This document shows, piece by piece, positions 31,400 through 36,629 of a DNA stretch of 36,890 nucleotides (within the stretch, counting starts at the first letter, position 1; each line of letters begins with the position of its first letter). The stretch covers positions 1-36,890 of the forward strand of contig JAGXGJ010000130.1 of the NCBI GenBank assembly GCA_024636875.1, in the 5' to 3' direction. Position numbers and translations under genes: made by a program. The notes beneath the pieces are model-generated. The model was given only the letters and a program-made list of their open reading frames with translations, made no database searches and was not told the origin of the DNA. This DNA is from Methylococcaceae bacterium (GTDB taxonomy: Bacteria; Pseudomonadota; Gammaproteobacteria; Methylococcales; Methylomonadaceae).

Positions 31400-31948
31400 T
31401 TATCCTCTCACCGGTTTCTTTTCAAGCTTTCTTTGTAACGTGCGCCTGTGCATGCTTAAAGCCCGGGCAGCAGCCGAAATATTACCATCATACTGCATGA
31501 GTACTTTCTGTAAATGTTCCCATTCCAGCCGTTTTACCGATAAGGGATTTTCACTAATCGAAACCGATGGGTCGCCTTCATTTTTCTTGAGGGCATTGAC
31601 AATTTCATCCGCATTAGCCGGTTTGGTCAAATAATGTATGGCGCCCAGTTTTATCGCTTCAACTGCTGTGGCAATACTGGCGAAGCCGGTCAGCATAACA
31701 CAGGCGGTATTATCATCTAAAGAAATCAGCTTCTTAACCAGCTCAAGACCGGATTCATAGCCAATACGCAAATCAATCACCGCATATTCGGGTAGATATT
31801 GCTCGGCAAGAGCGATACCTTCTGCTACATTGGTAGCGACCAGTACCTCATAGCTTCTTTTTTCTAAGGCGGACTTCAACACGTTACAAAATGTTTCATC
31901 ATCATCCACAAGCAGCAGACGCGGTTTATCCATTTCATGAATAGTCAT
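31400..31948 (-). CDS. regA: RegA/PrrA/ActR-type redox response regulator
   Basis: Cytosolic two-component regulator of about 182 residues. Receiver: LLLVDDDETF (acidic pocket), phosphoryl-acceptor Asp59 in YAVIDLRIG, Thr in MLTGFASIATAVEA and Lys in YLTKPANADE. The DNA-binding part is the short Fis-like helix-turn-helix of this family (NISAAARALSMHRRTLQRKL), ending KKPVRG. RegA homologues control respiration, carbon and nitrogen genes in response to redox state. Its start overlaps the end of the sensor kinase gene by 14 bases, and the kinase carries RegB hallmarks, so pairing is firm. Confidence 0.93.
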   Translation of the reverse strand: MTIHEMDKPRLLLVDDDETFCNVLKSALEKRSYEVLVATNVAEGIALAEQYLPEYAVIDLRIGYESGLELVKKLISLDDNTACVMLTGFASIATAVEAIKLGAIHYLTKPANADEIVNALKKNEGDPSVSISENPLSVKRLEWEHLQKVLMQYDGNISAAARALSMHRRTLQRKLEKKPVRG

Positions 31949-33311
31949 TATCAGTCTCTGTATTTAAAAGTGGTAAAGTGATTTCCACGCAGGCGCCATT
32001 CGGTTCACTGTTGTAGAGTTGAATTTTACCGCCCAGGCGATTAATTGTAGAATAGGTTAAAAATAGCCCTACACCCAGGCCACGTTTTTTGCTGACCACC
32101 GGGTGCTTGCCGGCCAAATCGACTAAATCTGAAGGAAAGCCTGGGCCAAAGTCGCGAATCTTGATAGTCATATAACTTTTATCCCAGGTTGCGTGGAATT
32201 CAATACCCTGTTCAACAGGGGATGCCTCGGCGGCATTATTTAAAATATTAATAATAGAATGTGTCAATGTCCGTTCGGCAATAATTTTAGCTTCTATTGC
32301 AACATCAGGATCTATTACACAGTTTAGTTTTGCTGCCGGCTTGTGCGCACGCCATTGATTAATCACACTATCGAGATAATCAGCAACAAGTATCACGCTG
32401 CCTGATTCGGCGCGCATTTCACCGGCAGAGGCTGACATTACCGACAGCGTTTCCTTGCAGCGGTTAATTTGCTGTTGCATGATCAGCATCTTTTCGTACA
32501 GATCAGGGTAGCGATGACTCGGGTACTCCTGTTCCAGCTCGTGAGCCACTATCGCAATAGTGCCTAACGGAGTTCCCATGTCGTGAGCCGCACTCGCGGC
32601 CAATGTGCCCAATGCGATAACCCGCTCATCTCTTAACGCATTTTCCCGGGCCTCAGCCAGACTCCGCTCCTGATCCTTGAGGGTCCTGGCCAGCTCAACA
32701 ACAAAAAAAGCGACCAGGCCGGCGCTAAATACAAAACCAAACCACATGCCAAACATGTGTAAACTGAAATAACTTTTGTCATTCATGATATGAGCGTGTT
32801 GCAACATTTGATAGCTCTCTATATCTGAATGCAGCAACGGCGCCGGGTCGGGCATATGAGGTTCTATAGACGGCAAGGGAACATTAAAAGCGATCAACAT
32901 CGTATAAAGCGATGTAGTTAAAATCACCATATACCACGCATAGGCCTGCGGCAGCATAATTGCTGTAATAATAAGAGGCAATAGAAATACCCAGGTGATT
33001 GGATTTGAAGCGCCTCCAGTCAAATATAATAACGCTGCTATGGCGAAGACATCGATTGATATCTGCGAAAAAATCTCCAATTCCGTCACTGGCTCATCAG
33101 TCTCAAGGCGCATTGACGTATAGAGATTGACTGCCACTGTCGCTAATACCACTAACCAGAGCTGCTGCTCCGGCAGATTAATATTAAGACCATATATCGA
33201 TAAAATGATAAGCATCCCCTCACCCATCACCATCAGGTTTCTGAGAATAAATAACCACTTCAAATTTTGTTTGGCAGAAATTTCCGTTTTTGGTGAAACA
33301 TGTGAAAGCAT
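31935..33311 (-). CDS. regB: RegB/PrrB/ActS-type redox sensor histidine kinase
   Basis: Inner-membrane kinase of 458 residues with six predicted N-terminal membrane segments. Residues 99-105 are GGASNPI, the quinone-binding loop of RegB (GGxxNPF, here with Ile). The H-box is ASAAHDMGTPLGTI with phosphorylated His243; Cys285 in INRCKETLS corresponds to the redox-active Cys of RegB. ATP-binding boxes: NILNNAAEAS, IRDFGPGFP and GLGVGLFLTYSTINRLGGKI. Paired with regA downstream (14-base overlap). Probably senses the respiratory electron-transport state through ubiquinone and a disulfide. Confidence 0.93.
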   Translation of the reverse strand: MLSHVSPKTEISAKQNLKWLFILRNLMVMGEGMLIILSIYGLNINLPEQQLWLVVLATVAVNLYTSMRLETDEPVTELEIFSQISIDVFAIAALLYLTGGASNPITWVFLLPLIITAIMLPQAYAWYMVILTTSLYTMLIAFNVPLPSIEPHMPDPAPLLHSDIESYQMLQHAHIMNDKSYFSLHMFGMWFGFVFSAGLVAFFVVELARTLKDQERSLAEARENALRDERVIALGTLAASAAHDMGTPLGTIAIVAHELEQEYPSHRYPDLYEKMLIMQQQINRCKETLSVMSASAGEMRAESGSVILVADYLDSVINQWRAHKPAAKLNCVIDPDVAIEAKIIAERTLTHSIINILNNAAEASPVEQGIEFHATWDKSYMTIKIRDFGPGFPSDLVDLAGKHPVVSKKRGLGVGLFLTYSTINRLGGKIQLYNSEPNGACVEITLPLLNTETDNDYS

Positions 33312-33475
33312 TTTTTATTAATTAATTATTTTAATTATTTACTGTCTGGGAGAGACAAAATACAAGGGTTAAAGGCAACAACATTATTAACATTCACCTT
33401 ATACCTTAATATATGTATATAAGCTGCGACAATATGTCACATTTTTATTTGCAATAACTGTTGCTATTATTAACC

Positions 33476-33572
33476 TAACTTCAAAGCTCTTGATAGAGTT
33501 TTAAAGCTGAAAGTTGCGTTATATCACTCCTAATAAGCCTTGAGGCGGTTTTTTTTAAACCGCCTTTTTTTT
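33476..33572 (+). ncRNA. Candidate small RNA between regB and msrA
   Basis: A roughly 97-base transcript is suggested by an extended -10 (TGCTATTAT, 33462-33470) and a perfect rho-independent terminator ending at 33572, with no open frame between. It lies on the plus strand, divergent from regB and convergent with msrA, so neither neighbouring gene can use this terminator. A short stem (AGCTC/GAG) near 33485-33500 is possible. The -35 match is poor, as tolerated with extended -10 promoters. No known sRNA family is recognised. Confidence 0.5.
33543..33572 (+). terminator. Rho-independent terminator of the candidate small RNA
   Basis: AGGCGGTTT and AAACCGCCT pair around a short T loop and are followed by eight Ts, all on the plus strand. 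Read on the minus strand no T-run follows, so it does not serve regB or msrA. Confidence 0.85.
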
Positions 33573-33588
33573 GTGCTGTCATCATACA

Positions 33589-34221
33589 CTAATCAAAATC
33601 CACACCCAGCCCGCCCAGACCACAATAACCCATCGGCTCTTTGGCAAGATATTGCTGATGATAATCTTCGGCATAATAAAACGCGCTTGCCGGCATAATC
33701 TCGGTAGTTATATGATTAAACCCTGCTTTCGTGAGCTGCTGCTGGTAGTGTTGTTTTGATTCAAGCGCTTCCTCCAGTTGTTCCCGGGTGCAGGTATAAA
33801 TACCAGACCGGTATTGTGTCCCGATATCATTACCTTGTCTCATGCCCTGAGTAGGATTATGTGATACCCAGAACAGCCGGAGTAACTTACCGTATGATAT
33901 TAATGCTGGATCATAAATAACTTTTACAACCTCATTATGCCCGGTTAAACCGCTGCATACTTCATCGTAAGCCGGATTGGGCGTGTAACCGCCGCTATAA
34001 CCGACCGCAGTACTGAATACACCTGGAAGTTGCCAATACTTTCGCTCAGCCCCCCAAAAGCAGCCCAGGCCAAATAGAGCCTGTTCCATACTGGCAGGAA
34101 ACGGCGGCACAATTGGGTTGCCCGTTACGAAATGTTTATTGGTAACAGGCATCGGTATGTCTCTGCCCGGCAATGCATCTGCAGGGCTGGGCAAGATAAG
34201 TTTTTTTGATGATAAAATCAT
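33589..34221 (-). CDS. msrA: Peptide methionine-S-sulfoxide reductase MsrA
   Basis: Reduces methionine-S-sulfoxide in proteins using thioredoxin. The active site [10 protein letters not shown] holds Cys54; supporting motifs are [32 protein letters not shown] and [14 protein letters not shown]-terminal [11 protein letters not shown] carries the resolving Cys. About 210 residues, with an N-terminal extension of about 48 residues before the core, as in E. coli MsrA; no obvious signal peptide, so cytosolic. It stands alone, convergent with the candidate small RNA and divergent from hslO, another oxidative-stress gene. Confidence 0.96.
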
Positions 34222-34380: not shown

Positions 34381-34407
34381 AATATTCCGGCATTATAACA
34401 AAGCATA

Positions 34408-34502
34408 TAGGAGCCAAAGTTGGTAAAGCGACCTTTGTAATACCCTCACCCTCTCCCAAAGGGAGAGGGTACTTTGTGTCGCTTTACCAACGTCGGACTC
34501 TA
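34408..34502 (+). repeat. MITE-like repeat, copy C, in the hslO leader
   Basis: A 95-bp element with the same ends as copy B (TAGGAGCCAAAGTTGG and CCAACGTCGGACTCTA). It lacks one CCCTAA unit in the core, which explains the six missing bases. Its right end is 20 bases before the hslO start codon, just ahead of the ribosome site. Confidence 0.9.
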
Positions 34503-34522
34503 TATACACATACAGGAAAGTC

Positions 34523-36325: not shown

Positions 36326-36424
36326 TAGGTTGGTAAAGCGACCTTTGTAATACCCTCACCCTCACCCTAACCCTCTCCCAAAGGGAGAGGGGACTTTGTG
36401 TCGCTTTACCAACGTCGGACTCTA
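36326..36424 (+). repeat. MITE-like repeat, copy D, abutting an aquaporin fragment
   Basis: A 99-bp element with the family's right end (CCAACGTCGGACTCTA) intact but the left end shortened: TAGG is joined directly to TTGGTAAAGCG, so about 8 bases are missing. The core has one extra CCCTCA unit. It lies directly against the start of the truncated aquaporin sequence. Confidence 0.9.
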
Positions 36425-36425
36425 T

Positions 36426-36629
36426 ACTATCGGCGGTTTTGCTGCCAACGGCTATGGCGAGCATTCACCGGGTGGATACTCTTTGTTAGCGGCACTGGTG
36501 ACAGAAATTGTCATGACCATGATGTTTCTGTTCATCATCTTATCGGTTACCCACAAAAATGCGCCAAGTGGCTTTGCCGGGCTCGCCATTGGTCTGTGTC
36601 TGACCTTGATCCATTTAATCTGCTTCTAA
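36426..36629 (+). pseudogene. Truncated aquaporin (AqpZ-like) fragment
   Basis: Reads [20 protein letters not shown] and then LIHLICF before a stop. [15 protein letters not shown] and the later [12 protein letters not shown] correspond to the middle-to-late part of AqpZ (E. coli: [15 protein letters not shown] and AIGLALTLIHLI). The first half, including the first NPA motif, is missing on the left, where MITE copy D begins, and the sequence stops just before the second NPA motif. It cannot form a water channel. A frame exists from a TTG inside the repeat, but this is chance. The 5' half does not occur upstream in the window, so this is a rearrangement scar rather than a simple insertion. Confidence 0.85.

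Follow-up and report, generated by a model that had tools for sequence, protein, structure and literature searches.

RegB/RegA is a widespread redox switch, and PcrZ, a small RNA (sRNA) of Rhodobacter sphaeroides, is controlled by PrrA, the RegA homologue of that species. As described in the available text of the sources, PcrZ forms an incoherent feed-forward loop with PrrA (PMC4263372, PMC10253847); the circuit is an alphaproteobacterial photosynthesis circuit, and those parts of the sources describe no multi-copy family or kinase-adjacent gene. In Enterobacterales, ArcZ lies beside arcB, downstream of it and usually overlapping its 3' end, and according to the available part of the article it is repressed by ArcA and cleaved by RNase E (PMC11331407). 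In Streptococcus, the two-component system CiaRH controls several similar sRNAs, the csRNAs, composed of a hairpin, an unpaired anti-Shine-Dalgarno stretch and a terminator hairpin (PMC3091779, available text). RegA is also at work in a type I methanotroph, Methylomonas sp. DH-1, where the kinase carries the quinone-binding motif GGASNPI and RegA is activated on methanol and binds the feo promoter; a TonB receptor and the tonB operon also depend on RegA, although no binding could be detected at them, and the authors leave the intermediary for such indirect targets open (PMC13274454, in the portion available). The main text of that article uses none of the terms sRNA, small RNA, noncoding or motif, and its regulon is made of protein genes only. 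In the open-access literature we found no paper that ties RegB/RegA to a multi-copy sRNA family.

We analyzed a 36,890-nucleotide stretch of DNA (the window). It makes up a 36.9-kb contig from an assembly (G000) of 3.19 Mb at 77% completeness, which the nearest named regB loci assign to the Methylococcales. Our main reading, to which we assign a probability of roughly 0.75, is that it encodes a trans-acting base-pairing sRNA of about 97 nt, whose promoter is controlled, and most likely activated, by RegA through a box at 33425-33441, and which is one of several siblings. By position and physiology the nearest described sRNA is ArcZ: in both cases the gene lies beside a redox two-component system, on the strand opposite to the kinase gene, and ends in a Rho-independent terminator. 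Unlike ArcZ as presented in the accessible part of PMC11331407, the present sRNA is upstream of regB and divergent from it, has siblings, and is probably activated instead of repressed. It would resemble PcrZ in belonging to the circuit of a RegA homologue, a likeness by description and not by sequence. With the csRNAs it shares two predicted hairpins with an unpaired anti-Shine-Dalgarno region between them, and several copies per genome, whereas its neighbouring system is RegB/RegA-like, its host is a methanotroph, and the csRNAs have an anti-start-codon element of their own (PMC3091779, available text). By analogy it would work like the csRNAs of CiaRH but is not one of them, being set apart by regulator and organism and not by sequence comparison. 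No Rfam 15 family reached its gathering threshold in the window (0 matches); the suhB/MmgR family (RF00519) gave a sub-threshold match over 33502-33580 (E = 0.0022, 25.3 of 41 bits), the likeness lying in CGUU..CUCC..terminator, and six loci with siblings or distant relatives gave no Rfam match at E <= 0.1. We regard the sRNA and its siblings as a new family within an already known type of regulator.

On the minus strand of the window the order is msrA (33589-34221), an intergenic gap of 277 bases, regB (31935-33311) and regA (31400-31948). The product of regB, which points away from the sRNA, is a redox sensor kinase of the ActS/PrrB/RegB family that contains GGASNPI and matches NF033792 (E = 1.2e-63) with 215 of the 350 bits required, below the curated cut-off. 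The product of regA, a response regulator of the ActR/PrrA/RegA family and the proposed activator of the sRNA, has Response_reg and HTH_8 domains and matches NF033791 (E = 1.2e-55) with 188 of the 250 bits required, also below the curated cut-off. Past msrA lies the Hsp33 gene, on the plus strand. It and its neighbour are flanked by a repeated, MITE- or REP-like element (34405-34505 and 36329-36426), whose copies share 63 nt at 97% and 42 nt at 95% identity, the first copy having inverted arms.

The initial annotation had placed in the gap a candidate small RNA divergent from regB, with an extended -10, a body without an open frame and a plus-strand terminator that no annotated gene can use, and this observation is confirmed. 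The extended -10 (TGCTATTAT) is at 33462-33470 and the intrinsic terminator at 33542-33572, with the hairpin GAGGCGGTTTTTTTTAAACCGCCTT at 33542-33566 followed by eight T at 33565-33572; since msrA and regB are both on the minus strand, neither can use it. The sRNA itself (33475-33572, plus strand) would start at 33476-33478 and ends in U8. Support for the -10 and the terminator from this single sequence is weak: a promoter scan found 5 sites against 8.3 expected and did not list TGCTATTAT, which has no -35 box; the 3.5-kb region holds 6 terminator-like sites against 3.7 +/- 2.2 expected; and the folded RNA has z = -2.84, with 3 of 200 shuffles equally good.

Comparison with relatives lifts the sRNA block far above chance, because the same block is found in them with near-random flanks. 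When the 277-base gap was used as query, the matches covered mostly 33424-33573 (best E = 5e-56), a few of them only part of the block; 49 of 61 genomes gave some match at E <= 1, many of these being box-only or chance, while the 24 genomes below 1e-8, the window's own included, all belong to its family (f1). Sixty loci were recovered in a search for regB relatives, and at 33 of them the block lies upstream of regB on the opposite strand, in one case (L066) as two in tandem. These 34 copies and the window's own were aligned (alignment A1). Pairwise identity over the 35 is 0.37 in the 40 nt before the box, 0.93 in the box, 0.63 from the box to the -10, 0.77 in the -10 region, 0.87 both in the first nine transcript bases and in a 26-nt core, and 0.32 in the 40 nt after the U tract. 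The body is therefore conserved beyond the terminator hairpin in the way of a gene, and the flanking DNA is not, in agreement with a small RNA divergent from regB. No open frame is conserved: the longest complete one in the aligned copies has 0-21 codons, single-base insertions and deletions shift reading frames between copies, and a nine-codon TTG frame seen by eye through the linker of the window's sRNA was rejected because it is shifted or stopped in relatives.

A covariance model (R1) was built from the 35 copies and scores the window's sRNA at 95.7 bits. Its 35 matches at regB loci are its training sequences, and the independent result is the search of the order, where R1 matches 87 of the 201 Methylococcales genomes searched, which represent 20 of 48 genera and all belong to f1; this tally still includes one match judged spurious by eye (G137, L133, lacking box and core) and one (G034) that is a sibling sRNA. 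Counting from the listings and assuming the same draw, f1 accounts for 127 of the 201 genomes, so that the sRNA is carried by at most 87 of 127 genomes of this family and R1 matches 0 of 74 in the others. Among 369 genomes of the class R1 matched three: the window's own, its relative G012 and a weak one without box, judged spurious by eye (G474, L093). Among the cultivated carriers of the sRNA are Methylobacter luteus (L053), Methylobacter marinus (L050) and Methyloglobulus morosus (L071). The sRNA and its box also occur far from regB, as in G014 (sRNA at C8:202763, RegA at C8:171589), which makes the sRNA a gene of its own. The candidate thus looks like a real small-RNA gene, one of a family.

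The conserved unit starts earlier than the interval 33462-33572 of the initial annotation, which contains the RNA but leaves out, and so missed, a 17-bp palindromic box, TGCGACAATATGTCACA (33425-33441, plus strand). This box, the proposed RegA site of the sRNA promoter, precedes 35/35 aligned copies, and its end is 34-36 nt from the AACT start in 34/34 copies measured out of the 35. It abuts the -35 position of a promoter with no recognisable -35; with a start at about 33477, a box at -52 to -36 would fit an activator. At the 60 regB loci the box is found at 33/33 with the sRNA and at 0/27 without it (the stretch upstream was scanned over 900 nt in 23 of the latter and over 104-464 nt in four). 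Since box and sRNA come and go together, the box at these loci serves the sRNA and not regB.

In its exact form, TGCGACAATNTGNCRCA, the box occurs among the matches listed in 150 of 201 genomes of the order, against 3 matches of a reversed control pattern, and in 37 of 340 genomes of the class (62 matches, against 1 for the control). A scan of the window's own genome allowing two mismatches gave 4 matches against 4 for the control, and only the exact site stands above the control. Outside the order, a strong RegA is present in 30 of 35 genomes with the box and in 9 of 45 without it (Fisher p = 4.5e-9, a value that counts related genomes as independent, uses a RegA cut of 1e-40 set after the gap from 7e-42 to 1e-23 had been seen, and compares with box-less genomes taken non-randomly from the head of the list for high completeness). 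Five genomes have the box and lack a strong RegA (G248, G283, G348, G419, G461), and for two of them, G348 and G419, a box genome of the same genus does have one. By coordinates, the box is within 3.5 kb of regA in 12 of the 35. It also lies just upstream of regB homologues, facing away from them, in other orders (L221, L222, L232, L242, L249) and in other families of this order (L262, L264, L266, L269-L271), and at L236 it is found 35 nt before a regB homologue, supported by NCBIfam, which it faces. Because it co-occurs with RegA across Gammaproteobacteria, the box is most likely a RegA site. It matches, except at one position, what we take to be the RegR box, GNGRCRTTNNGNCGC; the available text of PMC4064962 gives no RegR-box consensus.

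The link with the redox kinase that the initial annotation had suggested therefore gains a RegA-co-occurring box at a fixed distance upstream of the sRNA. Its other suggestion, a link with msrA, found no support. In the ~2.5 kb retrieved to either side, regB without msrA is seen at some copies (L104, L107, L108, L111, L118, L121), msrA without regB at others (L095, L110, L123, L125, L126, L131, L134), and neither gene at still others (L105, L106, L112, L113, L114); a functional msrA-sRNA link was rejected because this synteny is not kept.

The copies share a predicted plan composed of a 5' hairpin, an unpaired CU-rich, anti-Shine-Dalgarno-like linker and a terminator. In the window the 5' hairpin (33476-33516) has an outer stem formed by UAACUU(C) at 33476-33482 with AAAGUUG at 33510-33516, which encloses a variable inner hairpin; across copies the outer stem is (U/C)AACUUU with AAAGUUG. 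In the fold of lowest energy, the window's sRNA forms the inner hairpin in preference to this outer stem, and RNAalifold on A1 (7 pairs predicted) missed the 5' stem. The outer stem was supplied by hand from single folds, and for this reason the 99.2% of A1 cells in which it is paired is a figure biased towards the stem. No pair of it changed on both sides: of its seven pairs, four never vary, two vary on one side and one varies only by unpaired cells. The siblings support the stem independently, since in them it reads AACUCU/AGAGUU, a double change. The linker (33517-33541), which includes the anti-Shine-Dalgarno-like ACUCCU at 33526-33531 and is the proposed target-pairing region, has the conserved sequence CGUUAUAUC-n-UCCUAA. 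Its CU motif is present in 35/35 copies, against 9% expected by shuffling, and the mean unpaired probability predicted for it is 0.88, against 0.49 for the whole RNA over the same copies. In the terminator, 6 of the 8 stem pairs counted are changed on both sides in some copy, and the U tract has at least 7 residues in 35/35 copies, so that a Rho-independent terminator with a long U tail, a feature of Hfq-type sRNAs, is found throughout.

Weak matches of R1 proved to be other sRNAs with the same plan and with boxes of their own, often double; some adjoin, by eye, a ksgA-like gene. A covariance model built from nine of these siblings (R2) matched 22 of 39 relatives at E <= 0.05. Two of the 22 do not count as carrying a sibling, G043 (L155, without box, judged spurious by eye) and G020, in which the model had found the first sRNA, so that 20 of 39 have one; at E <= 0.001 R2 matched only G012 among the 369 class genomes. 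Several similar copies, tandem and dispersed, are present in part of the genomes, with four in tandem in G006 and three in G017. The 41 siblings measured are R2's 38 matches minus the L157 duplicates (four), L163 (two), L155 and L165 (the window's own sRNA), together with those remaining from 19 R2 matches at f1 box loci after the eight weakest had been dropped. Where the spacing was measured (40 siblings), the start lies 34-35 nt from the box in 38 and 26 nt from it in two; the CU motif is found in 37/41 linkers, with a predicted unpaired probability of 0.95 against 0.52 for the whole RNA. Copies and siblings together, the unpaired CU-rich, anti-Shine-Dalgarno-like linker is found in 72 of the 76 RNAs measured. 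The window's own genome holds one sibling (G000:C7:15775-15866; L153 1501-1592); past its terminator lie GGGAGAAACCATG and a frame with a HEAGHAAAIHL motif (254 codons, from an upstream start).

Boxes also precede similar units beyond the reach of R1 and R2. Outside f1 but within the order, the box stands before a hairpin-linker-terminator unit whose linker is UCCUCCUCUU or CCUCCUC, and in three genomes of family f4 (G083, G068, G091) this unit is divergent from regB, the box being ~80-95 nt before the RegB match. Among 65 exact boxes outside f1, examined at one locus per genome, a terminator lies within ~230 nt downstream in 17 and on the other side in 1; all 17 are among the 37 Methylococcales boxes, and the 28 from other orders gave 0. 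Within f1, 21 boxes in 20 loci chosen as not this sRNA have a terminator downstream in 12 cases and on the other side in 1; of those 12, ten are sibling-like and matched by R2, two (L285, L286) weakly.

Other boxes have different neighbours. In family f7, the boxes upstream of regB at L262, L264 and L266, facing away from it, have no terminator or sRNA-like unit downstream. Two boxes (L282, G202:C77; L284, G016:C38) are followed by ~230-nt stretches, alike by eye, that end in a GCCCACTT..AGTGGGC terminator; R2 gave no match in them, and they are perhaps another RNA. At 16 loci of other orders viewed for frames, several boxes precede, by eye, TonB-receptor-like or exported-protein-like frames; of four such frames tested, those at L239 and L231 match TonB-receptor models and those at L221 and L232 match nothing. 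RegA-type boxes lie ~59-76 nt before TonB-dependent-receptor-like frames at L253, L254, L257, L258 and L261 (f7) and at L239 (another order), and for L253 and L239, 180-residue pieces gave weak scores with the copper-receptor model TIGR01778 (52 and 54 of 472 bits). At L295 (G082:C21) an exact box is found 73 nt before a 526-codon open frame that is, by eye, FecA-type TonB-dependent-receptor-like.

From these features the following mechanism can be proposed, in which transcription of the sRNA, binding of RegA, activation rather than repression, the participation of Hfq and Shine-Dalgarno pairing are steps that we infer. When the quinone pool is over-reduced, RegB would phosphorylate RegA, and RegA~P would bind next to the weak -35 position, leading to synthesis of the sRNA. 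The 5' hairpin and the U8 terminator would protect its ends and suit Hfq, and the linker CGUUAUAUC..UCCUAA, left single-stranded, would pair with ribosome-binding sites, so that translation of a set of mRNAs would be blocked, probably with Hfq. Several sibling sRNAs with RegA boxes would act alongside; the related copies suggest a family of sRNAs that may silence other genes.

In six genomes the complement of the linker, RGGRGTGRTRTRRYGY, searched with wobble pairs and one mismatch allowed, yielded 31 matches where the reversed control yielded 21; the excess is mostly in G002, and three exact matches are the sRNA gene itself. These matches were not taken as targets: 13 of the 31 were viewed, and two, in purF, fall in conserved codons. 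With simple shuffles as background, pairing with the start of regB is no better than shuffled (mean z 0.08, 0/35 below -2), leaving feedback on regB through its start unsupported by this test of 35 cases, and none of the 47 open reading frame starts in the window (frames of at least 120 codons) has a z below -2.

The lack of targets in these searches (the six genomes, the regB start and the 47 frame starts) would also be expected if the RNA, real and RegA-controlled, served to sequester a protein or ribosomes, as a 16S anti-Shine-Dalgarno mimic or a CU-rich sponge. What nearly all siblings have in common is the CU-rich unpaired linker, which in other families of the order is UCCUCCUCUU or CCUCCUC; the near-invariance in the present sRNA, however, spans AGCUGAAAGUUGCGUUAUAUC, beyond any anti-Shine-Dalgarno core, and for that reason suits gene-specific pairing, so that we consider sequestration unlikely. 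It is far less probable still that the stretch is not a free sRNA but a leader, an attenuator or an element antisense to msrA. The sibling in the window's own genome does end just before a frame with a ribosome-binding site and could for this reason be the terminated leader of a gene that may be RegA-controlled; at the present locus, though, the next gene, msrA, is antisense to the sRNA, and loci that lack msrA still carry the sRNA.

The identity of the regulator can be questioned as well. Some boxes precede TonB-dependent receptor genes, two of which weakly match the copper-receptor model, and five of the 35 box genomes lack a strong RegA, so that the box might belong to another regulator, for example a metal-responsive one, and the sRNA would merely be a neighbour of regB. 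Against this stand the box-RegA co-occurrence across genomes, the short distance to regA in about a third of them, the regB homologues adjoined by the box in other orders and other families of the order, and the presumed likeness to the RegR box; we judge this possibility improbable, slightly more so than sequestration. A base-pairing sRNA under RegA control remains the preferred reading, which supports and widens the interpretation of the initial annotation.

The RegA regulon of DH-1 as published, in the available part of PMC13274454, differs from the present case in comprising protein genes where we find an sRNA family, and this family is a conjectural candidate for the intermediary of the indirect RegA targets. 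We tentatively extend this to a broader proposal, possible though more doubtful than the main reading: the fast-evolving sibling sRNAs with RegA boxes and anti-Shine-Dalgarno linkers, one of them divergent from regB in f1 and f4, would be the missing intermediary through which RegB/RegA reaches genes not bound by RegA, among them the tonB operon and the siderophore receptor of DH-1, at the switch between methane and methanol or at low oxygen, and RegA of Methylococcales would act largely through RNA. Mapping of the RegA regulon in methanotrophs has just begun, and its indirect targets are, in the part of PMC13274454 available, without a known intermediary; a conserved sRNA family with a likely RegA box makes the question of this intermediary testable in cultivated strains and in existing RNA-seq data.
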